Assembly (NCBI GenBank): GCA_016879935.1
Contig: JAACJQ010000137.1
Span: 1 to 64,000 of the forward strand
DNA length: 64,000 bases
Source of the DNA: Archangiaceae bacterium
Lineage (GTDB): Bacteria > Myxococcota > Myxococcia > Myxococcales > Myxococcaceae
Reading direction: 5' to 3'
Below the pieces are notes generated by a model. The model did not search any database and was not told the origin of the DNA. It saw nothing but the letters and a program-made list of their open reading frames with translations. Position 1 is the stretch's first letter, and the number at the start of each line of letters is the position of its first letter. The translations under genes and the position numbers were made by a program. Shown here piece after piece: positions 4,396 to 16,116 of the stretch.

Positions 4396-6369
4396 TCAGC
4401 CGTTCGACATGTTCACGGTGTACGTGGTGCACGTCGGCGCCGCGTTGGCGCGCCGGTAGATCTTGATGTCGAAGTCAGCGCCGTCTTCCGAGCCGATGCT
4501 GCCGCTGCGGCGGAAGCTGCGCGTGCCGCACGTCTCACCCTGCATGTAACAGCTCGAGTCGTGCGAGGTGCCGCCCTTGCGGTAGATGCACATCTCGATG
4601 CTCGGGTCGCTCGTGGTGAGGGTGATGCGCACGTCGAAGTCGTCGCTCAAGAAGTTCGTCGCGTCTTCGGCGTGAAACCGAATCCAGTCGACGTCGTTCG
4701 CTTCGGGCAGCATGCCCTGGTGCTGCGCGGTCTGGCCCGAGGTGTCCTTCAGGTTGCCCTTGTACTCACCCATCGAGCAGAAGCCTGACGGGTCGGTGCC
4801 GGTCTCCTGGCACTCGCAGCCGTTCGAGGCCATGGCGTCGGTGTTGTAGTAGCCGGCGTTGCACGCCGCGATGCCGCACTGACCGTTCATGCACGAGGGC
4901 GTGGCGTTGGCCACCGTGCAGCCCGAGTTGCAGTCGACGCCGGTGGCCGTCAGGGGAATCTCGACGATCTGCTGCACGGGGTCGTCGGTCTCGATGCTGA
5001 CGCTGCCGTTGAACGAGGCCATCGCGTCGGCGCGGAACTCGATCTCGATGTTGCCGCGCGCAGCCGTCGCCAACGTGAAGGGCAGGGCCGGCAGGTTCTT
5101 GAACGAGTACAGGTTGCTGGTGCCGCCGACGAAGGTGATGCGCTTCACCGTCAGTGCGCCGAAGCCCACGTTCTTGAGCTCGAGGTTCTTGCTGACCTGC
5201 CAGCCGAGCGGCGTGTTGCCCCACGCGAGCATGGTGGGCCGCACCTCGAGGCGGGGCTCGGTGACGACGCCGCGCACGGGAATCTCGAGCGTGGGCCGCG
5301 TCGCGTCGGTCGAGGTGATGACGAGCATCGCGTCGACGATGCCGGGCTGGCTGGCGTCGAGGTCGAGCGTGAGCGGAATGCGCTTGAGCGAGTCGAGCGT
5401 GGCCGTCATCGCCATGTTGGGCAACGAGACGCGCACGTTGTTCGACGGGTCACGCACCGTCACGTTGCTGATGAACAACGAATTGCCGCCCAGGTTGGCG
5501 GCCTGCACCGTCACCTGCCGGCGCTGGCGCCGGGGCACGTCACCGAAGTCGATGGCGCGCTCCTCGGGCTCCACCGCGATGACGCCGTCGATGAAGCTGG
5601 TGCCCTCGACCTCGAAGCTGACGGGGTTCACCGCGGGCGTCGTGGAGCCGATGACGACGTCGCCCTGGTAGTAGCCGCGCGTCGTCGGTTTGAAGACGAC
5701 GGGAATCGACAGGCCGGCGTCGGGCACGAGCGCCGAGAACGCGGGGAGCGTCACCGACACCCACGGGTGGCCGGCGTCGACCTGGTCGACCGCGAGCGCG
5801 ATGTTGCCGAAGCCCACGTTGCGCGCGATGGCCGGCAGCGACTTCATCTCGCCCTGACGCACGAGCCCGAAGTTGAGCGAGCGCGGCTGCACGTCGAGGG
5901 CGGGCTCTCCGACGAGGCGGCGCACGAGGGGAATCTCGAGCTCACCGGGTTCGAGGCGGTCGGGGTCTTCGGAGTCGGGCGATGCGTCGGTGTACGTCAC
6001 CAGCACGCGCAGGTCGTCGGCCGCTGGCGCCGACTGCGGGGCGTACTTCACGTCGATGGAGAACTCGGCCGCGGCGCCGAGAATGAACGGCGTCGCGATG
6101 CTGGGCGTCAGCATGTACTCGCCGCTGTCCTTCGAGAGCACCACGCGCTTGACGGCCACGCGGCGGTTCACCGTCGACTGCACCTTCACCGCGAGCGTGG
6201 TGTCGCAGCCGGGCGTCACGCACGTGAAGGCGAGCTGCCGCGGAATCGCGCGCAGACCACGGAACGGGCCGATGCCGTTGCTGTTGGTGACGCTGGTGGG
6301 CGGCTTCGTGCCGCAGGCAGTGACGGCGGCGAGCAGCAGGAGCAGGTGAGTTCGCATGGTGGGCTCCAT
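4396..6369 (-). CDS. Choice-of-anchor D domain lipoprotein
   Basis: This 657-residue exported protein has a lipobox (LAAVTACG) and then several ASH/choice-of-anchor-D beta-sandwich repeats, each beginning with motifs such as LNFGLVRQG or IDFGDVPRRQ and containing N-x-G turns. A Cys-rich spacer (about 515-570) follows, and then a C-terminal beta domain with further cysteines. Such proteins are probably cell-surface scaffolds or adhesins. The ATG at 6369 sits in the stop of the upstream gene (ATGA), so the pair is translationally coupled. An inner ATG at 6357 is also possible. Confidence 0.85.
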   Translation of the reverse strand: MEPTMRTHLLLLLAAVTACGTKPPTSVTNSNGIGPFRGLRAIPRQLAFTCVTPGCDTTLAVKVQSTVNRRVAVKRVVLSKDSGEYMLTPSIATPFILGAAAEFSIDVKYAPQSAPAADDLRVLVTYTDASPDSEDPDRLEPGELEIPLVRRLVGEPALDVQPRSLNFGLVRQGEMKSLPAIARNVGFGNIALAVDQVDAGHPWVSVTLPAFSALVPDAGLSIPVVFKPTTRGYYQGDVVIGSTTPAVNPVSFEVEGTSFIDGVIAVEPEERAIDFGDVPRRQRRQVTVQAANLGGNSLFISNVTVRDPSNNVRVSLPNMAMTATLDSLKRIPLTLDLDASQPGIVDAMLVITSTDATRPTLEIPVRGVVTEPRLEVRPTMLAWGNTPLGWQVSKNLELKNVGFGALTVKRITFVGGTSNLYSFKNLPALPFTLATAARGNIEIEFRADAMASFNGSVSIETDDPVQQIVEIPLTATGVDCNSGCTVANATPSCMNGQCGIAACNAGYYNTDAMASNGCECQETGTDPSGFCSMGEYKGNLKDTSGQTAQHQGMLPEANDVDWIRFHAEDATNFLSDDFDVRITLTTSDPSIEMCIYRKGGTSHDSSCYMQGETCGTRSFRRSGSIGSEDGADFDIKIYRRANAAPTCTTYTVNMSNG

Positions 6370-8126
6370 CACGGCACCGAGAAGACGCCGTTCTGCCGCA
6401 CGAGGTTGAGAATGTACGCGCTGTCGCCCTTGCGCCCGAGGCTGGTGTTCTTCTCGGACACGAGCATGCCGTTGACGAACACCTTCACGTTCACGGCGGA
6501 GCTCGCCTTGTTGAGGCACACCTGCTCGATGAGATGGCCCACGTCCTGACCGGGAATGGGAATCGCTCCGCCGGTGAGCACGTCGACGAGAATGTCGATG
6601 CTGATGCCGAGAATGCCCGCGAGCAGCGCCGTCGGCAGCGACTTGCAGTCCTGCTGGTAGTTCACCATCACGCGGTAGGTGCCGTCGGCGCGCGCGTCGG
6701 CGAGCACGATGCGCTCGGGCTCCTCTTTCGGCGCAAACGCGAGCCACGTCGGGTTGCCGTAGGTGCCCCAGTTCATCGGGGCCGGCGTGCGCTCGTTGCA
6801 GACGTAGCCAAACGGGTGCTCGAGGGTCATGTCGACGTCGCGCACGTCGTTGTCGAAGGCCGAGTCACTGCCGTTGTCGTAGGTCATCTCGAGCTTCACG
6901 ACCTCGGGGCCCGGGCCCATCACGCCGTTGGCCGTGACGGGAATGGTGACGACGGAGCGCGAGGGGTCGTTCGAGTCGAGCTGGAGCAGCCCGCTGATGG
7001 GCCCGGCCGCGGTGGCGGTCACGACGACCTGCAGCTCGCTGAAGGTGCCGCCCGCGATGGCGGGGATGATCTGTGGAGCCGTCGACAGGTCGGTCGAGGG
7101 GCGCGTGCCTGCCCAGCTCGCGCGCACGGAGAGAGGCGCGCCGCCGCTGTTGGTGATGGTGAGCGGCCGCGAGAGCGTGGTGCCGAGCCGCACGTCGCCG
7201 AGGTCGATCATCATCGGCGTCACCGAGATGACCGGCGGGGTGGCCGAGTTGCCCTGCATGGGAATGCGCAGCTCGCCTTCGCTGGTCTGCAGCACCAGCG
7301 TGCTGAGCGTGTCTCCGCCGCCGTCAGGAGCGCCCGAGGAGCGCGGCGTGAACCGCGTCTCGAAGGTGAAGAGCGCGGCGTTGTCCTGCGTGATGGGGCG
7401 CAGCGTCTTGGGCAGCGAGCCCATGGGGAGCACCACCTCGAAGTCGGAGTTCATCGCCGGCTCGACCGCGATGGCGGTGATGGTGACGGGAGCCGTGCCG
7501 GTGCCGCGGTTCGACAGCGAGACGTTGCGCTTCGACTGCCGACCCACCGCGACGTAGCCGAAGTTCACCGGGTTCGGCGCAGCCGTCAGCTTCGGCTCGC
7601 CGATGTAGTTGGTGCGAATCGGCAGGCGGAAGGTGGGGTACTCCTTGTCGTCCGAGAGAATGCGCAGCTCGTTCGATTGCGGCGTTGGATCACCGGGCGC
7701 CCAGACGATGGAGAGCTCTTCGCTGCGGCCGGGGAAGATCTCCTTGGGGAAGTTCGAGCCACAGAACTCGCACCCGATGCCACCGTCGGCCTTCGCCAGG
7801 TTGGCCTCGAAGAGCGTCAACGTGCAGTTGCCGATGTTCGAGAGCAGCACCGTCTTCGTCTGCGGCGCGTTCGACGTCGTCATGCCGAAGTCCACCGTGT
7901 GCGGGGTGGGCTGCAGAATGGGCGTGCCGTCGTTGACGTTTTCACACGTCTTCGCGTTCTTCGGCACGCACTCGAAGGACTCACACAGGTAGCCAGAGGG
8001 ACAGTCGACGTCCATGCGGCAATAGGTGACGTCCATCACGCGGGTGGTCTTCTCGCAGCCCGTCGCGCAGACGAGGAGCAGCACGACGCCAGCGAGGGCG
8101 GGGGCAACGGTTCGCTTCGAGTCCAT
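6369..8126 (-). CDS. Choice-of-anchor D domain lipoprotein, paralogue of downstream gene
   Basis: This 585-residue lipoprotein has lipobox ATGC near residue 24 and a Cys-containing segment (C..DVDCPSGYLC). Several choice-of-anchor-D modules follow, for example VDFGMTTSN, VNFGYVAVGRQS and IDLGDVRLGTT. The last about 180 residues resemble a beta-rich surface domain. The start at 8126 has AGGAA five bases upstream, which makes it better than a GTG or ATG further out. It shares architecture with the overlapping downstream gene, and the two are probably products of duplication. No enzyme motif is visible. Confidence 0.85.
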   Translation of the reverse strand: MDSKRTVAPALAGVVLLLVCATGCEKTTRVMDVTYCRMDVDCPSGYLCESFECVPKNAKTCENVNDGTPILQPTPHTVDFGMTTSNAPQTKTVLLSNIGNCTLTLFEANLAKADGGIGCEFCGSNFPKEIFPGRSEELSIVWAPGDPTPQSNELRILSDDKEYPTFRLPIRTNYIGEPKLTAAPNPVNFGYVAVGRQSKRNVSLSNRGTGTAPVTITAIAVEPAMNSDFEVVLPMGSLPKTLRPITQDNAALFTFETRFTPRSSGAPDGGGDTLSTLVLQTSEGELRIPMQGNSATPPVISVTPMMIDLGDVRLGTTLSRPLTITNSGGAPLSVRASWAGTRPSTDLSTAPQIIPAIAGGTFSELQVVVTATAAGPISGLLQLDSNDPSRSVVTIPVTANGVMGPGPEVVKLEMTYDNGSDSAFDNDVRDVDMTLEHPFGYVCNERTPAPMNWGTYGNPTWLAFAPKEEPERIVLADARADGTYRVMVNYQQDCKSLPTALLAGILGISIDILVDVLTGGAIPIPGQDVGHLIEQVCLNKASSAVNVKVFVNGMLVSEKNTSLGRKGDSAYILNLVRQNGVFSVP

Positions 8127-8277
8127 GGGGGTTCCTGACTCTACCATCTGGCACCCCGGGGCGAAGGAGGTGCAACTTTCCAGCGGCGTTCGTCGGTTCT
8201 ACCGCCTGCCGGGCCGTGGGGACAAATCGTGGCCGGGGCTTCCGGTTCGGGGTCTGACTCGGGCGCTGCGCGATATC

Positions 8278-9318
8278 GTGCGGGCGGTGCGCGTCCTGCT
8301 CCTGCTGTTGCTGACGGTGTCGCTGGCGGCCCGCGCCGAACCCGAGCGGGTGACGGTGGGCTCGTTTCTCCGCAACGTCGAAGCCATCGACCTCGACCAG
8401 AACGCGTACCACCTCAGCGCCGTCGTCTGGTTCAAGTGGAAGGGTGAGCGTGACCCGACGAAGTCGCTGCGCTTCGTGAACCTGCTCGAGGCGTGGGCGC
8501 TCACCCAGGTGCCGGTCTACGAAGAGCCGCTCACGTTGCCCGACGGGAGCCGCTACCAGCGCCTGCTCGTCGAGGGCCGCTTCTTTCACAAGTTCGCGCT
8601 CGGCACGTTCCCGCTCGATTGGCAGAAGGTGATGCTCGAGCTCGAAGACTCCCAGCGCGGGGCTGATCAGCTCGTCTTCGAGCTCGACCCCGCCAGCGGC
8701 GTGTTGCCCGAGCTGTCGGTACCGGGCTGGGTGGTGAAGGCGCCCATCGTCGAAGAGAAGCGGGTCGAGGTGCCGGGCAGCTTCGGGCTGGCGGGCAAGC
8801 TGGAGCACTCGCGCGTTCGGTTCGGGGTGTTGCTCCAGCGGCCGCTGCGCGTGTTGTTCACCACCATGCTGCCGCCGATTCTGCTGGTGCTCATGTGCTG
8901 CTGGTTCGTGTTCTTCTTGAAGCCCATTCACGTCGAGGCCCGCGTCGGCACCGTCATCACCGCGCTGCTCACCATCGTGTTCCTGCAGCTCGCCTTCACC
9001 GACGACCTGCCGTACCTGGGCAGCACGGTGCTGCTCGATCAGCTCTTCAACCTCTCGTACGTCGTCATCACCGCCATCTTGTTCGAGTGCGTGACGGTGA
9101 CGCGGCTGTTCGACAAGGCGCAGACGCTCGAGGCGCGGCTGGCAGGGCTCGTGGAGGGCGACAAGGCGAAGGCCGAAGCCGAGCTGCTCTCGGTGCGGGG
9201 GCGGGTGGAGTCGCTCGACGCGCGCTCCCGCCGCTGGTTCCCCATCGCGTACCTGCTGGGCTGCGCGTTGATCATCTTCTTCGCGCGCGGGCCCGAGGTC
9301 TTCTCGATTCCCCTGTAG
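8278..9318 (+). CDS. Prokaryotic pentameric ligand-gated ion channel (Cys-loop receptor family)
   Basis: The protein is about 346 residues. A signal peptide (1-20) precedes an extracellular beta-sandwich; its loop near LGTFPLDWQK (108-117) matches the eukaryotic Cys-loop but lacks both cysteines, as in GLIC/ELIC. Four membrane helices follow: M1 (193-215, with the conserved PP), M2 (222-240), M3 (255-275) and M4 (320-336). M2 begins with ARVG and has I5', T6', L9' and T10' in register with animal receptors. The M3-M4 segment (276-318) is charged and helical. GTG 8278 gives a full signal peptide; GTG 8287 is an alternative. The gated ion and the ligand are unknown. Confidence 0.88.
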   Translation: MRAVRVLLLLLLTVSLAARAEPERVTVGSFLRNVEAIDLDQNAYHLSAVVWFKWKGERDPTKSLRFVNLLEAWALTQVPVYEEPLTLPDGSRYQRLLVEGRFFHKFALGTFPLDWQKVMLELEDSQRGADQLVFELDPASGVLPELSVPGWVVKAPIVEEKRVEVPGSFGLAGKLEHSRVRFGVLLQRPLRVLFTTMLPPILLVLMCCWFVFFLKPIHVEARVGTVITALLTIVFLQLAFTDDLPYLGSTVLLDQLFNLSYVVITAILFECVTVTRLFDKAQTLEARLAGLVEGDKAKAEAELLSVRGRVESLDARSRRWFPIAYLLGCALIIFFARGPEVFSIPL

Positions 9319-9335
9319 CCTACGTCGGCGGCTAC
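9315..9335. terminator. Short hairpin across two convergent stops
   Basis: GTAGCC and GGCTAC form a 6-bp stem with a 9-base loop between the channel gene and the Kef gene. The arms contain the stop codons of both genes. There is no T-run, so a terminator role in either direction is only possible. Confidence 0.3.
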
Positions 9336-11104
9336 TGGGCGTCGGCTTCGAACAGCTTCTCGAGGTCGGCACGGGCCTGCTTCGCGCGCTCCTGCAGCGT
9401 GCTCACGTCATCGCGGTGCTGGAAGCTGTCCATCAGCAGCTGCTCGTCGTGCGAGCGGAACGTCGCCAGCGTGCGCGCCACCTCGGACGACGGCATGCCG
9501 AGCAGCGACAACACGTCGCCCGTCATCTCGAGGCTCGACGAGAACGTCTCGCGCATGAGGTGCGTGACGCCCAGCGCGAGCAGCTCGTACGCGTGCTGGC
9601 GGTTGCGGGCGCGGGCCACGATGGTGACGTGGGGGAAGTGCTTCTGCAGCGTGCGCGCGACCTCGACCGACTTCTCGACGTCGTCGATGGCCAGCACGAA
9701 CAGGCGCGCCTTCGCCGTGCCTGCGGCCTCGAGCAGCTCGAGCCGTGACGCGTCGCCATAGAAGACCTTGTTGCCGAAGCGCCGCACGAAGTCGACGTGC
9801 TCACTCGACGCATCGAGCGCCACGAAGGGAATGTGCCGGGCCGTCAGCACGCGGCCCACCACCTGGCCCACGCGCCCGAAGCCGGCGATGACGACGGGAA
9901 TCTCTCCGTCCTGCACGAGCACGTCGAAGGCCTTCTCCTCCTTCTTCGGCATCAGCCGCGGCGCGAGCAGCTTCTCGAAGAGCGTGAAGGCCACCGGCGT
10001 CACCGCGAGCGAGAGCCCGACGACGAGCACCAGCAGCTCGGACATCTGGGTGGTGAGCGCGGCCGTCGAGGTGGCGAGCCCGAACACGACGAACGCGAAC
10101 TCACCGCCCTGCGAGGTCGAGATGGCGAGGCGCAGGGCTCCGAGCGTGGTGCCACCACGACGTTTGCCGATGAAGAACAGCACCGCGCTCTTCACCAGCA
10201 GCAGGCCGACGACGAGCGACACCACCTGCGCGGGCTTCGCGGCCAGCAACGACAGGTTCACCGACATGCCGACCGCCATGAAGAAGAGCCCGAGCAGCAG
10301 GCCCTTGAAGGGCTCGATGTCGGCCTCGAGCTCGTGCCGGTATTCGGAGTCGGCCAGCAGCACGCCTGCCGAGAACGCGCCGAGGGTGGCTGAGAGGCCA
10401 ATCGTCTCCATCAACACCGCCGTGCCTGCGACGACGAGCAGCGCGAAGGCGGTGAAGAGCTCCTGGCTGTGCAGCGCGGCGACCTGCTTGAGCACTGGCC
10501 GCAGCACGAACCGGCTCGCCACCACCATCGTGCCGAAGGTCGCGAGCACCTTGAGCAGCCCGAGGCCCACGCTCTGCTCCTGTGCGGGCGCAGCGTGGGT
10601 GCCCAGCAACGGCAGCAACGCGAGGAAGGGAATCGCCGCGAGGTCCTGGAACAGCAGAATGCCGAACGCGACGCGGCCGTGCTGCGAGGTGAGCTGGTTC
10701 TTCTCGGCCAGCACCTGCACCGCGAGCGCCGTCGACGAGAGCGAGAGCGCGAAGCCCGTGACGAGGGCCGCCACCGGCGTCAGCCCCATCGCGAGGCTCG
10801 CCAGCGCGAGCAGCCCCGTCGTCACGCCCACCTGCAGCCCGCCCAGCCCGAAGACGTGCCCGCGCATCTGCCACAGGCGCGACGGCTGCAGCTCGAGCCC
10901 GATGATGAAGAGCAGCAGCACCACGCCGAGCTCGCTGAACTTCATCACGCTCTCGACGTCGCTCACGAAGCGGAACGCCGACGGCCCGATGGCGACGCCC
11001 GCGACGAGGTAGCCGAGCACGCTGCCCAGGCCCGTGCGTTTGAAGAGCGAGACGGCGATGACGGCCGCGACGAGGAAGATGACGGCGTCGTGAAGAAAGC
11101 CCAT
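9332..11104 (-). CDS. Kef-type monovalent cation:proton antiporter with RCK domain
   Basis: This 590-residue CPA2-family protein has about twelve hydrophobic segments in residues 1-385, including GRVAFGILLFQDLAAIP, the Q/D-containing helix typical of KefB/KefC. A cytoplasmic TrkA-N/RCK domain follows, with the nucleotide-binding GFGRVGQVVG and an acidic residue at the next strand end (ALDA). The family expels K+ or Na+ in exchange for H+ under nucleotide or thiol control. The start MGFLHDAVIFL at 11104 is preferred to more distal codons. It is convergent with the ligand-gated channel. Confidence 0.92.
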   Translation of the reverse strand: MGFLHDAVIFLVAAVIAVSLFKRTGLGSVLGYLVAGVAIGPSAFRFVSDVESVMKFSELGVVLLLFIIGLELQPSRLWQMRGHVFGLGGLQVGVTTGLLALASLAMGLTPVAALVTGFALSLSSTALAVQVLAEKNQLTSQHGRVAFGILLFQDLAAIPFLALLPLLGTHAAPAQEQSVGLGLLKVLATFGTMVVASRFVLRPVLKQVAALHSQELFTAFALLVVAGTAVLMETIGLSATLGAFSAGVLLADSEYRHELEADIEPFKGLLLGLFFMAVGMSVNLSLLAAKPAQVVSLVVGLLLVKSAVLFFIGKRRGGTTLGALRLAISTSQGGEFAFVVFGLATSTAALTTQMSELLVLVVGLSLAVTPVAFTLFEKLLAPRLMPKKEEKAFDVLVQDGEIPVVIAGFGRVGQVVGRVLTARHIPFVALDASSEHVDFVRRFGNKVFYGDASRLELLEAAGTAKARLFVLAIDDVEKSVEVARTLQKHFPHVTIVARARNRQHAYELLALGVTHLMRETFSSSLEMTGDVLSLLGMPSSEVARTLATFRSHDEQLLMDSFQHRDDVSTLQERAKQARADLEKLFEADAQ

Positions 11105-11246
11105 GAGCGTTGGTGTCGGCGGTTGCGGGGGAGCCGCGGGGATAATCACCTCGGCCGAACCTGGCGAGGCGTTTCCCAGCCGTTCATCGGGGCGTGGGGT
11201 TGGAAAGTCGCCGCGCGGGCCTGCTCTGCGTAGAGTGCAAAGCCTC

Positions 11247-11516
11247 GTGAGCGAAGCGACCTACACCATTCCCAACGCGCTCGGTCTGCACGCCCGCGCC
11301 GCTGCGCAGCTCGTGAAAGCGGCGAACAAGTACCCGTGCGAAGTCGACGTCGAGTGCGAGGGCCAGACCGTCAACGGCAAGTCCATCATGGGCGTGCTGA
11401 TGCTGGCCGCCGCGCAGGGCATGGTGGTGAAGGTGTCGTGCCGCGGCGACGGCGCCGATGACTGTCAGAAGGAGATCGGCGCGCTCATCAACAACAAGTT
11501 CGGCGAGCCGCGCTGA
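11247..11516 (+). CDS. ptsH: Phosphocarrier protein HPr
   Basis: An 89-residue HPr of the PEP phosphotransferase system. Starting at GTG 11247 puts the phospho-accepting histidine of GLHAR at position 15 and the regulatory serine of NGKSIMG at position 46, matching canonical numbering; this decides against the GTG 12 bases upstream. The partner Enzyme I gene lies 2.8 kb downstream on the same strand, separated by two oppositely oriented genes. No EII component is visible, so a regulatory PTS is likely. The Ser46 site suggests regulation by an HPr kinase encoded elsewhere. Confidence 0.95.
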   Translation: MSEATYTIPNALGLHARAAAQLVKAANKYPCEVDVECEGQTVNGKSIMGVLMLAAAQGMVVKVSCRGDGADDCQKEIGALINNKFGEPR

Positions 11517-11519
11517 GCC

Positions 11520-13508
11520 TCACTTCTGCTTCGCCGCCCACCAGCGCTTGACGTCGTCGAGCCGTGAGAAGCGCGTCGCCGGGGGCAGGCTCGCGACCAG
11601 CTGCTTGCCGTAGCGCTTGGTGAGCACCCGCGTGTCTCCGAGCGCGACGATGCCGTGGTCGGTGCGCGTACGAATGAGCCGGCCGAAGCCCTGGCGCAGC
11701 GAGAGCGCCGCTTGCGGCACCTGGTACTCGTCGAAGGGGTTGCCGCCCTCTTTGCGCACGGCCTCGATGCGGGCGGCCTGCAGCGGCTCGTTCGGCGGCG
11801 CGAAGGGCACCTTGTCCATCACCACCAGCGAGAGCGCGTCACCCGGTACGTCGACGCCCTCCCAGAAGCTGTGAGACGCGAAGAGCACCGACGGCTTCTC
11901 TTTGAACTGCTCGAGCAACACCGTGCGCGGCGCGTCGCCCTGCTTGAAGACGGGCACCTCGACGTGTGGCGAGACGAGCGCGTGCACCTCGTCGAGGTGT
12001 CTGAGGCTGGTGCACAAGACGAACGCGCGGCCGCCCATCAACCGAATGAGCCGCAGCACCTCGCGCGAGAACTGCAACGTGAAGTCGGGAGCGTTGGGCT
12101 CGGGCAGGTGTGACGGCACGTAGAAGGCCGCCTGCGAGGGGAAGTCGAAGGGCGACTCCACCGAGACTGTCGCGGTGGCCTTCGGGTCGAGGCCGAAGCG
12201 GCGGGCGACGTACTCGAAGGAGCGCTCCTGCCGGCCCGACGACGAGGTGAGGGTGGCCGAGGTGAAGATGACGGCGCCGACGTCTTCGTAGAGGAAGCGC
12301 GCGAGGCTCTCGCCGACGTCGATGGGCGCGGCCCGCAGCGCGAGGGAGCGCCCACGCGTCTCGGCCCAGTACACCTGCCTCACGTCGTCGGCCTGCACCA
12401 CGTGCTCGAGGGCCGCGGCCGTCTCCACCGCGCGCCGGTTGAGCGCGCCGAGGTCGGGGTCATCGTCTCCCGTGAGCGCGGCGATGGCGGCGAGCGTCTC
12501 GAGGGTGGCGGCGGCTGGCGGGCGGAGCTGGTCGACCACCTCGGGCGTCAGCGTGAAGTCGCCCTGCCGGCGCTGCGTGTCGAGGGGCTCGACGGGAAAC
12601 GCGAGCGAGAGCTCACGAAACAGCGCCTCGCTCCGGCTGCGCAGGGTGACCGAGAGCGCTGCCAGGTGACTCGCGCGCGCGTCGGTGACCGGCAACACGC
12701 CCACCAGGTCTTGCGCGAGGCTGGTGAGCCGCCCCGACGAGACCGAGACGCCGAAGTGCTCGGTCGCCACGTCTTCGAGCGCGTGCGCCTCGTCGAACAC
12801 CACCGCGTCGTACGGCGGCAGAATGCCCAGCTTCTCTTCGCCGCCCCGTGAGCGCAGCGAGAGGTCGGAGAAGAAGAGGGCGTGGTTCACCACGATGACG
12901 TCGCAGTCTGCAGCCGCGCGCCGGCCCTTCGTCACGAAGCACGACTCGTACAGCGGGCACTTGCCGCCGAGGCACGCGTCGCTGGTGGTCGAGACGAGCG
13001 GCCAGCCGCTCCAGTTCTCGGGCACGCGCGTCTCGCCGCGGTCGCCGGTCTCGGTCATCATGGCCCACTCCCGAAACGCGGGCCACCAGGTGGCGTCTTC
13101 GGGCGTCGCGAAGCTGGGCGCCTGGTCGAAGGCCTCGAAGCGGTGGGCGCACAGGTAGTTGGAGCGCCCTTTGAGCAGCGCCGCTTCGAACGGCAGCCCC
13201 ACCACGTCTCGCAGCAGGGGAATGTCCTTCGTGAAGACCTGGTCTTGCAGGGTGCGGGTCGCGGTGGAGACGACGACGCGTTTGCCCGAGAGCACCGCCG
13301 GCACGAGGTAGCCGAGCGTCTTTCCGGTGCCGGTGCCCGCCTCGGCGAGCAGCGCGGTGCCCGTCTCGAGCGCGACCTCGACGCCCTTCGCCATCTCGAG
13401 CTGCGCGGGCCGGTGTTCGTACCCCGACAGCACGGCCGACAACGCGCCGCCCTGCCCGAGCACGCCTTCGACCGTCGCCTGGTGAAGCTCTCTGCGCTTC
13501 GCGGTCAC
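11520..13508 (-). CDS. DinG/XPD-family ATP-dependent DNA helicase
   Basis: This 662-residue superfamily 2 helicase has Walker A AGTGTGKT (57-64), the DEAH box in VVFDEAHALEDV and a C-terminal helicase domain with QGFGRLIR (motif VI). Between motifs I and II lie cysteines (NYLC, LGGKC, YESC, AADC) arranged as in the 4Fe-4S domain of DinG/XPD. It should unwind 5' to 3' on damaged or structured DNA. It starts inside the stop of the zinc-ribbon gene (4-base overlap), so the two are co-transcribed. Confidence 0.93.
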   Translation of the reverse strand: MTAKRRELHQATVEGVLGQGGALSAVLSGYEHRPAQLEMAKGVEVALETGTALLAEAGTGTGKTLGYLVPAVLSGKRVVVSTATRTLQDQVFTKDIPLLRDVVGLPFEAALLKGRSNYLCAHRFEAFDQAPSFATPEDATWWPAFREWAMMTETGDRGETRVPENWSGWPLVSTTSDACLGGKCPLYESCFVTKGRRAAADCDVIVVNHALFFSDLSLRSRGGEEKLGILPPYDAVVFDEAHALEDVATEHFGVSVSSGRLTSLAQDLVGVLPVTDARASHLAALSVTLRSRSEALFRELSLAFPVEPLDTQRRQGDFTLTPEVVDQLRPPAAATLETLAAIAALTGDDDPDLGALNRRAVETAAALEHVVQADDVRQVYWAETRGRSLALRAAPIDVGESLARFLYEDVGAVIFTSATLTSSSGRQERSFEYVARRFGLDPKATATVSVESPFDFPSQAAFYVPSHLPEPNAPDFTLQFSREVLRLIRLMGGRAFVLCTSLRHLDEVHALVSPHVEVPVFKQGDAPRTVLLEQFKEKPSVLFASHSFWEGVDVPGDALSLVVMDKVPFAPPNEPLQAARIEAVRKEGGNPFDEYQVPQAALSLRQGFGRLIRTRTDHGIVALGDTRVLTKRYGKQLVASLPPATRFSRLDDVKRWWAAKQK

Positions 13509-14260
13509 GAGAGCAGCCGGAACATCGCGAAGAACGCGCCGAAGGTGACGGCGAGCGCGAGCCCGCCCACGATGACCTTCACGAACATCGGCGCCTGAGC
13601 CGCTTCTTTCGGGTCGCCGCGCGGCATCAACATCACCGACGAGGCCATGGTGAAGACGTCGTCGCGGCCGCGCTGGGCGATGGGGTCTTCGGGCATCGCA
13701 GCGAGGCGCAGCCGGTAGAGGCGCGCGAGGGCTGGCAGCTGGTTGCGCTCCGAGGCGAGGCGGCGCACGGCCGAATGGCGCGCGTCGTCACCCCACTCGC
13801 GCAGCAGCTCCTTCCACATCGCCGAGAGGTCGGGCGGCGGCAGCAGCTCGTCGAACTCGACGCGGTCGAACGACAGCCCGCACGTGGGGCACGCGGCCGA
13901 GCCGTCGCGCTTCGAGATGCACTTGGGGCACAGGCCCTCGGGCACCTGAAACGGGTCGCTCTCGGCGAAGACGCGCGCCGACTCCACCGCAGCCGCCGTC
14001 GGTGCGCGCAACATCACCACGTTGCTCGCCTCGGCCGACGACGCCAGCACCAGCGCCCGCGGGCCCGGCGTCTTGCGTGACGACATCGGCAGCGGCGGCG
14101 CGGCCTTCGGCGTCTCGGCGAGCGGGGGCAGCGCCTCGGTGGTGATGGGCAACGACGACTCGACGCCACACTTCGGGCAGCCGACGAAGGCGTCTGAGCC
14201 GACGACCTTCACCGCCGTCACCTCGATGAGCCGCTCGCAGCTGGGACAGACGGCCTTCAT
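13505..14260 (-). CDS. Zinc-ribbon membrane protein of unknown function
   Basis: A 251-residue protein with two Cys4 zinc ribbons: CPSC...CPKCG at residues 5-32, and CPKC...CPTCG in the middle, before RVEFDELLPP. The central region is helical, and a single C-terminal membrane helix (VIVGGLALAVTFGAFFAMF) anchors it. It is probably a tail-anchored protein facing the cytoplasm. It overlaps the helicase start by four bases (ATGA). No known family was recognised beyond the ribbons. Confidence 0.8.
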   Translation of the reverse strand: MKAVCPSCERLIEVTAVKVVGSDAFVGCPKCGVESSLPITTEALPPLAETPKAAPPLPMSSRKTPGPRALVLASSAEASNVVMLRAPTAAAVESARVFAESDPFQVPEGLCPKCISKRDGSAACPTCGLSFDRVEFDELLPPPDLSAMWKELLREWGDDARHSAVRRLASERNQLPALARLYRLRLAAMPEDPIAQRGRDDVFTMASSVMLMPRGDPKEAAQAPMFVKVIVGGLALAVTFGAFFAMFRLLS

Positions 14261-14364
14261 GCGGCCCCGAGTGTAGCGCTGGCGCAGCCTGCCGACCGAC
14301 TTCTTCTGACACCCACCCGCCTGCCCGGCCTTGTGCGCGGCCGAGCGCGGGCTACGGTTCGGTC

Positions 14365-16116
14365 GTGTCAGCCACGGTCTCGTTTCAGGGCATCGGCGCC
14401 AGCCCCGGAGTGGCGGTCGGCCACGCCTTCGTCATCGACGCACGCAAGGTGCGCACGCCGAAGGTGAAGCTGAAGCCCACCGACGCGGAAGCCGAGGTGA
14501 TGCGCTTTCGTACGGCCATCTCCTTGTCGGACAAGCAGCTCGAGGACCTCAAGACGAAGCTGTCGACGGGCGCCGAGAACGAGCACGCGCTCATTCTCGA
14601 AGCGCACCGCATGATGCTCCACGACCCGATGTTCCTCGTCGAGGTGACGCGGCTCATCAAGGAAGAGACCATCAACGCCGAGTGGGCCGTGCGGCGTGTC
14701 TGCCGGCGGCTGCGGCACCAGTTCGACAACCTCGAAGACGAGTACTTCCGCGAGCGGAAGAGCGACATCGAGTTCGTCGCCGACCGCCTCGTGCGCAACC
14801 TCATGGGCGAGGTCGTCGACCAGGAGCTCGAGGTGCCCGTGGGCGCCGTCGTCGTCGCGCACGACATCAGCCCGGCCGACGCAGCCATGCTGGTGAAGAC
14901 GGGCAAGGTGGGCGCGTTCGTCACCGACCTCGGCGGCCACACGAGCCACACGGCCATCGTCGCCCGCGCGCGTGACGTGCCGGCGGTGCTGGGCCTGGGC
15001 AACGCCGCCGAGGCGATTCGCAGCGGAGACGTGGTGGCCGTCGACGGCCGCCGCGGGCTGGTGCTGGTGAACCCCACCGAGGCGCAGCTCGCGTTGTTCC
15101 GCGAGACGATGCGCCGGCAGCTGGCGACCGAGGCCCTCGCGCTCAAGACGGCCGAGCTGCCGTCGGTCACCATCGACGGCGTGCGCGTTCGGCTCAACGG
15201 CAACATCGAGTTCGCCGACGAGATTCCGTCGCTGCTCGCGCACGGTGCCGAAGGCATCGGCCTGTACCGCACCGAGTTCCTCTTCCTCGACCGGCCCGCG
15301 CCGCCGACCGAAGAGGAGCACTACCAGGCCTACAAGGCCGTGCTCGAGGCGATGGGCGAGCGGCCGGTGACGATTCGCACGCTCGACCTCGGCGGCGACA
15401 AGGTGCCGAGCAACAAGAAGTGGGAGAAGGAGACGAACCCGGCGCTGGGCCTGCGCGCGATTCGCTACTGCCTGCAGCACCGCGACCTGTTCCGCGCGCA
15501 GCTGCGGGCGCTCTTGCGGGCGAGCGTGCACGGCAACCTCAAGGTGATGTTCCCGATGGTGTCGGGCATCTCCGAGCTGCGTGAGGCGCGCAGCGAGCTC
15601 GAGGCGTGCCGCTCCGAGCTCTCGCGACAGGGCGTGCCGCTGGGCCGCCGGGTGCCGGTCGGCATCATGGTCGAGACGCCGAGCGCCGCGTGGATCGCCG
15701 ACCGCCTCGCGCAGGAGGCCGAGTTCTTCAGCATCGGCACCAACGACCTCATTCAGTATTCGTTGGCCATCGACCGGCAGAACCGCGACGTCGCGTACCT
15801 CTACCGCCCGATGCACCTGTCGATTCTGCGCATGGTGCAGCACATCACCGACGCCGCGAAGAAGGCCGGCATTCCCGTGTCGATGTGCGGCGAGATGGCG
15901 GGTGACTCGTCGCTCACGCTGGTGCTGCTCGCGCTCGGCCTCGACGAGTTCTCGATGACGAGCGGCCAGATTCCCGTGGTGAAGCGCATCATTCGCAGCG
16001 TGTCGATGACCGAGGCGAAGGAGCTGCTCACGAAGGCGATGCAGTTCTCGACGGCCGAGGAGATCGAGCGCTTCGTGAAGAACGAGATGGACAAGCGCTT
16101 TGCCAATGAAGCGTGA
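14365..16116 (+). CDS. ptsI: PTS Enzyme I (phosphoenolpyruvate-protein phosphotransferase)
   Basis: This 583-residue cytoplasmic Enzyme I transfers phosphate from PEP to HPr. The N-terminal domain carries the phospho-histidine motif GGHTSHTAIVARA (active His about 195), and the helical HPr-binding part precedes it. The C-terminal PEP-binding barrel shows EGIGLYRTEFLF, the EFFSIGTNDL segment with D and N ligands, and the catalytic cysteine in VSMCGEMAGD. Length matches the usual 570-590. The start is GTG 14365. Its partner HPr is at 11247. Confidence 0.96.
   Translation: MSATVSFQGIGASPGVAVGHAFVIDARKVRTPKVKLKPTDAEAEVMRFRTAISLSDKQLEDLKTKLSTGAENEHALILEAHRMMLHDPMFLVEVTRLIKEETINAEWAVRRVCRRLRHQFDNLEDEYFRERKSDIEFVADRLVRNLMGEVVDQELEVPVGAVVVAHDISPADAAMLVKTGKVGAFVTDLGGHTSHTAIVARARDVPAVLGLGNAAEAIRSGDVVAVDGRRGLVLVNPTEAQLALFRETMRRQLATEALALKTAELPSVTIDGVRVRLNGNIEFADEIPSLLAHGAEGIGLYRTEFLFLDRPAPPTEEEHYQAYKAVLEAMGERPVTIRTLDLGGDKVPSNKKWEKETNPALGLRAIRYCLQHRDLFRAQLRALLRASVHGNLKVMFPMVSGISELREARSELEACRSELSRQGVPLGRRVPVGIMVETPSAAWIADRLAQEAEFFSIGTNDLIQYSLAIDRQNRDVAYLYRPMHLSILRMVQHITDAAKKAGIPVSMCGEMAGDSSLTLVLLALGLDEFSMTSGQIPVVKRIIRSVSMTEAKELLTKAMQFSTAEEIERFVKNEMDKRFANEA

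Follow-up and report, generated by a model that had tools for sequence, protein, structure and literature searches.

A myxobacterial pentameric ligand-gated ion channel with glutamate at −2′ of its pore and a clade-specific long M3–M4 segment

The gene at 8278–9318 (+) of the window, the 64,000-nucleotide stretch of contig JAACJQ010000137.1 that was analysed, encodes a bacterial pentameric ligand-gated ion channel (pLGIC, or Pro-loop receptor), a relative of the neurotransmitter-gated ion channels. It is a sound and fairly ordinary member of the family, with a pore filter that is ordinary for bacterial pLGICs, and it belongs to a clade marked by a long M3–M4 segment. A signal peptide, a β-rich domain some 168 residues long and four hydrophobic helices make up the protein (Table 1). 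In-frame GTG codons also lie upstream, and the signal peptide VRVLLLLLLTVSLAARA, followed by EPERV, suits the GTG start at 8278. The orthologues are 60–79% identical and lack internal stops, and the ORF is therefore coding and under constraint. No match to an RNA element, promoter or terminator was found around the gene. The host had been taken for a myxobacterium in a sequence-only reading, and the named relatives of the channel are indeed Myxococcaceae/Archangium MAGs.

Table 1. Coordinates of the channel gene, its parts and a fused paralogue (window positions, except for the last row, which is numbered within its own locus)
Feature	Coordinates	Strand	Basis
pLGIC subunit gene, 346 aa, GTG start	8278..9318	+	Profile, PDB-sequence and fold searches
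Predicted signal peptide VRAVRVLLLLLLTVSLAARA	8278..8337	+	Sequence reading; orthologues also hydrophobic N-terminally
Periplasmic ligand-binding β-sandwich domain, aa 21–188, up to pre-M1 Arg188	8338..8841	+	AF2 strands; ELIC/GABA-A ECD structural matches
Pro-loop motif FPLD, aa 111–114	8608..8619	+	ELIC alignment; motif per PMC4795631 Table 1
M1 helix with kink proline(s), aa 189–214	8842..8919	+	
Pre-M2 charge filter E−2′ A−1′ R0′, aa 220–222	8935..8943	+	
M2 pore helix, aa 221–243 (G2′, T6′, L9′, F13′, L16′, D20′)	8938..9006	+	
M3 helix, transmembrane part, aa 247–275	9016..9102	+	
Long M3–M4 segment, aa 275–318, predicted helical hairpin (M3 extension, turn, MA-like M4 extension), clade-specific	9100..9231	+	
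M4 helix, aa 318–343	9229..9306	+	
pLGIC-SBP_bac_5 fusion L019 (G000:C48), window's own genome	1-2313	−	Pfam SBP_bac_5 E 2.3e-32

Membership of the superfamily, as proposed earlier from the sequence, is borne out by concordant profile, PDB-sequence and fold searches and by the presence of all five superfamily signature residues. The pLGIC profile search, named beforehand as the point on which the assignment could fail, returned NCBIfam LIC (TIGR00860) at E 4.8e-13, below its 280-bit cut-off, and Pfam Neur_chan_memb at E 4.8e-6, with 27.4 bits lying just under the cut-off of 28.1. Pfam Neur_chan_LBD gave no match to the channel ORF, and with Neur_chan_memb just under its cut-off, assignment of the extracellular domain (ECD) therefore rests on the PDB-sequence and fold matches. 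A Neur_chan_LBD search of the channel's own genome was likewise empty, which is uninformative, as it was empty in 14 control genomes too. The best PDB sequence match is ELIC (E 5.7e-9 for the sequence alone and 1e-12 when the orthologue profile was used), followed by the glycine (GlyR) and GABA-A receptors. The AlphaFold2 (AF2) monomer model (mean pLDDT 77) has a β-sandwich ECD, mostly at 84–95 with weaker loops, and a four-helix transmembrane domain resembling those of ELIC, GLIC, GlyR and GABA-A receptors; it is a single chain with its lowest confidence in the M1/M2 region (48–73), and its domain orientation is unreliable. Foldseek matches the model to GlyR, GLIC and ELIC at E of about 1e-15 (VIA Z about 17), and its ECD fits those of ELIC and the GABA-A receptor with an rmsd of 2.5–2.7. 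The signature residues of Jaiteh et al. (PMC4795631) are FPLD, W151 of the β9 aromatic core, R188, the M1 prolines P199/P200 and the M2–M3 proline P245; in Table 1 of that paper, the signature at the tip of the β6–β7 loop is [F/Y]PxD, of which the proline is 100% conserved. The ECD of the channel ORF holds no cysteine, and hence no Cys-loop pair of the metazoan type, as in other bacterial pLGICs.

With Arg222 as 0′, the pore segment reads E−2′ (E220), A−1′ (A221), R0′, V1′ (V223), G2′ (G224), T3′, V4′, I5′ (I227), T6′ (T228), A7′, L8′, L9′ (L231) and T10′ (T232), and further on D20′ (D242), D21′, L22′ and P23′ (P245). This register is fixed because the M2–M3 proline 23′ and the pre-M1 Arg188 occur in 54/54 relatives, and the GlyR-like register that had been read from the sequence (A-R-V-G, I5′, T6′, L9′, T10′, with Glu at −2′) proved correct. 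That reading depended on ARVG being in the pore, and the M2 helix of the monomer model begins at A−1′, so that ARVG belongs to the pore helix. M2 is nearly identical among the orthologues, and no other part of the protein is as well conserved; since all nine aligned orthologues carry HVEARVGT unchanged, the filter motif is not due to chance.

The filter was surveyed in 54 distinct pLGICs, nearly all from Myxococcota, which were gathered by a search of 195 genomes of the phylum and by earlier searches. The −2′ residue is Asp in 29, Glu in 16, Gly in five, Ser in two and Ala in two; an acid thus occupies −2′ in 45 and −1′ in five more, and Arg occupies 0′ in 49. The pre-M2 triads are EAR (14), DVR (12), DPR (5), GER (5), DTA (4), DAR (3) and others, and DPR is also carried by an Azospirillum pLGIC from another phylum. 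According to Jaiteh et al. (PMC4795631), 79% of pLGICs have a basic residue at 0′, and the two preceding residues are variable in prokaryotes. The mix of filter residues had been called unusual for a bacterial channel; this view has to be corrected, because GLIC has the same E−2′ A−1′ and because the relatives as a rule combine an acid at −2′ with Arg at 0′, the usual layout in these bacteria. The five myxobacterial sequences with G−2′ E−1′ R0′ (L080–L083 and L022) follow the animal cation-type order, and both filter layouts thus occur in one family.

The channel probably passes cations, to judge from GLIC, the proton-gated channel of Gloeobacter violaceus, which shares E−2′ A−1′, and from the acidic rings that line both pore mouths (E220, and D20′/D21′). 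GLIC chains read SYEANVT at residues 220–226, placing E222 at −2′ and A223 at −1′, as in the channel; E222 is described as belonging to the filter that sets selectivity in cationic pLGICs (PMC5760087), and E220 is its counterpart, giving an acidic ring at one of the two positions, −1′ or −2′, that mark the cation type. The prevalence of acids at −2′ among the relatives points the same way. The earlier statement that cation-type channels have Glu at −1′ thus holds for metazoan channels and ELIC and fails for GLIC. GLIC further shares V1′, L22′ P23′, a Pro-loop of the FPxD/YPxD type and the lack of both Cys-loop cysteines and an accessory N-terminal domain, whereas it differs in its N0′, in the absence of a long M3–M4 segment, in an overall identity of about 19–20% and in an M1–M2 linker shorter by two residues (32 from R192 to N224, against 34 from the pre-M1 Arg to 0′ in the channel). 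Against passage of cations it counts that R0′ and A−1′ occur in anion receptors too and that GLIC has N at 0′, and no characterised precedent for the E−2′/R0′ pair was found in the literature consulted.

Selectivity for anions, with the filter set by R0′, A−1′ and the GlyR-length linker and with the E−2′ side chains pointing away from the pore, is the main alternative and appears rather unlikely. The glycine and GABA-A receptors, which are anion-selective Cys-loop channels with Cys-loop cysteines and a large intracellular domain that the channel lacks, share A−1′ R0′ V1′ G2′ I5′ T6′ L9′ T10′ and the linker length with the channel, A-[RK] before M2 is the anion motif of Tasneem et al. (PMC549065), M1–M2 aligns without gaps to GABA-A delta and with a two-residue gap to ELIC, and Foldseek places GlyR chains at the top. 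However, GLIC is cationic with the same E−2′ A−1′, the P−2′ A−1′ R0′ signature of anion channels is broken by Glu in place of Pro, and D20′/D21′ are acidic. The linker of GlyR length, moreover, is general in the 54-sequence set, since every member, those with the GER filter included, has a distance of 34 between the pre-M1 Arg and 0′. The description of M2 as anion-receptor-like is apt for its length and hydrophobic pattern and does not count as evidence for anion selectivity. A poorly selective or non-conducting receptor, in which the E−2′ and R0′ rings cancel and signalling proceeds through conformation or the cytoplasmic hairpin, would agree with opposite charges two residues apart and with a cytoplasmic segment of conserved length that is unusual in bacteria, but is very improbable given that conservation peaks in M2, as a working pore would predict, and that filters combining an acid with Arg are common among the relatives. 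With E−2′/R0′ channels of GlyR-like M1–M2 length, the clade offers a natural test of the determinants of charge selectivity.

The M3–M4 segment (RLFDKAQ...DARSRR) had been described as charged and about 43 residues long, and it comprises 44 residues, of which 10 are K/R and 8 are D/E. The channel sits in a clade of 16 (support 100/100), in which 67 residues separate the M3 Asp from the M4 Phe (extremes 57 to 84), against 42–44 in most other relatives. Of 147 genomes of the class, 13 carry a member of this clade; two more distant members are L057 and L058, and a survey of the phylum around L057 gave one match in 8 genomes. In the AF2 model, M3 and its extension form one long helix (aa 247–288), the second extension and M4 form another (aa 293–343), and the pLDDT of the hairpin is about 79–86. 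Modelling with the 44%-identical L057 as lead sequence gave the same hairpin, although this is not an independent test because most of the alignment is common to both models. No significant homologue of the hairpin was found in the PDB. Its sequence is variable and its length nearly constant, which suggests a structural element rather than a conserved binding motif, and on the AF2 prediction it would be a cytoplasmic helical hairpin. Prokaryotic channels are said to lack an intracellular domain (PMC12664993). It is tentatively proposed that these channels make up a bacterial pLGIC subfamily whose intracellular domain is structured. Their M3 and M4 would then extend into the cytoplasm much like the MA helices of animal receptors in minimal form, and would either link the pore to a partner there or form the frame of lateral portals for ions; a hairpin this small could be used to model such a domain.

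By analogy with the pLGIC family, a possible mechanism can be outlined. Five subunits, probably as a homopentamer, would sit in the inner membrane with their β-sandwich domains in the periplasm, where a cue such as a small ligand, pH or an ion may act on these domains. The signal could then travel through the FPLD loop, the pre-M1 Arg188 and the M2–M3 loop to open the L9′ gate, as in the mechanism of the family. The open pore would carry the E−2′ ring at its cytoplasmic mouth and D20′/D21′ at its outer mouth, and would most likely pass cations, with a fast local depolarisation as the result. ELIC, the amine-gated channel of Erwinia/Dickeya, is the closest PDB sequence and has R0′, T6′ and L9′ in common with the channel, whereas its filter Glu is at −1′ instead of −2′ and both its M1–M2 linker and its M3–M4 segment are shorter. 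E123 of the channel aligns with E131 of ELIC, the loop-B Glu; Phe133 of ELIC, a loop-B residue of its aromatic box, aligns with Ser125, and the ELIC aromatic box is therefore not kept. Residues of the ECD that are invariant throughout the clade include the EGRFFHKF block and N68/E71/L75 in the NLLEAWAL stretch, which may be the first candidates for the sensor site.

A conserved operon partner was sought and rejected, as no neighbour is kept beside the orthologues, and the channel therefore probably acts alone. The convergent gene for a Na+/H+-exchanger/TrkA_N (Kef-type) antiporter (9332–11149, −) lies beside 0/8 orthologues examined. Upstream and divergent are two genes with ASPM-SPD-2-Hydin (ASH) Ig-like domains (4396–8147, −), whose position next to the channel is limited to close relatives (G000, G003, G006 and G001); both are adjacent to it in the same-genus relatives G006 and G001, and a contig end in G003 leaves only part of the nearer one. 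Genes for HPr and a PEP-utilising enzyme I of the phosphotransferase system also lie close together at 11103–16116, here in a myxobacterium.

More novel than the channel itself is the architecture of some paralogues of the same family, in which a Pfam SBP_bac_5 domain follows M4. It was found in 10/10 paralogues tested, nine above the cut-off and the tenth truncated by the end of the stretch analysed; besides L019 these are L011, L012, L017, L020, L021, L022, L024, L025 and L027 (E down to 1e-38). Within this myxobacterial family, a single clade with full support unites the 15 sequences classed as fusions, five of them assigned by frame length or position, whereas Pfam shows the domain in the ten named. 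Because M4 ends on the periplasmic side, this C-terminal family-5 (peptide-type) solute-binding domain would sit in the periplasm next to the sensor domain of the channel itself. The arrangements reported by Tasneem et al. (PMC549065) are N-terminal PBP-I fusions and operons that contain PBP-II genes; a C-terminal SBP_bac_5 architecture is not among them, and literature searches found no published pLGIC with such a fusion after M4. As read from ORF starts, the flanks of the fusion genes hold no obvious transporter operon. Thirteen genomes carry a fusion, as do 11 of the 13 with the long-loop channel, a co-occurrence that may reflect shared ancestry. The two other pLGICs of the window's own genome, G000:C48 and G000:C75, resemble the channel in their acidic −2′ (Asp), linker length and Pro-loop, and differ in their identity to it (33% and 27%) and in an M3–M4 segment about 24 residues shorter, one of them being fused to a C-terminal SBP_bac_5. 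G000:C75 (L030, 21–1271, −), the third pLGIC of the genome, has DTA before M2 and, in contrast to the other two, lacks a basic residue at 0′.
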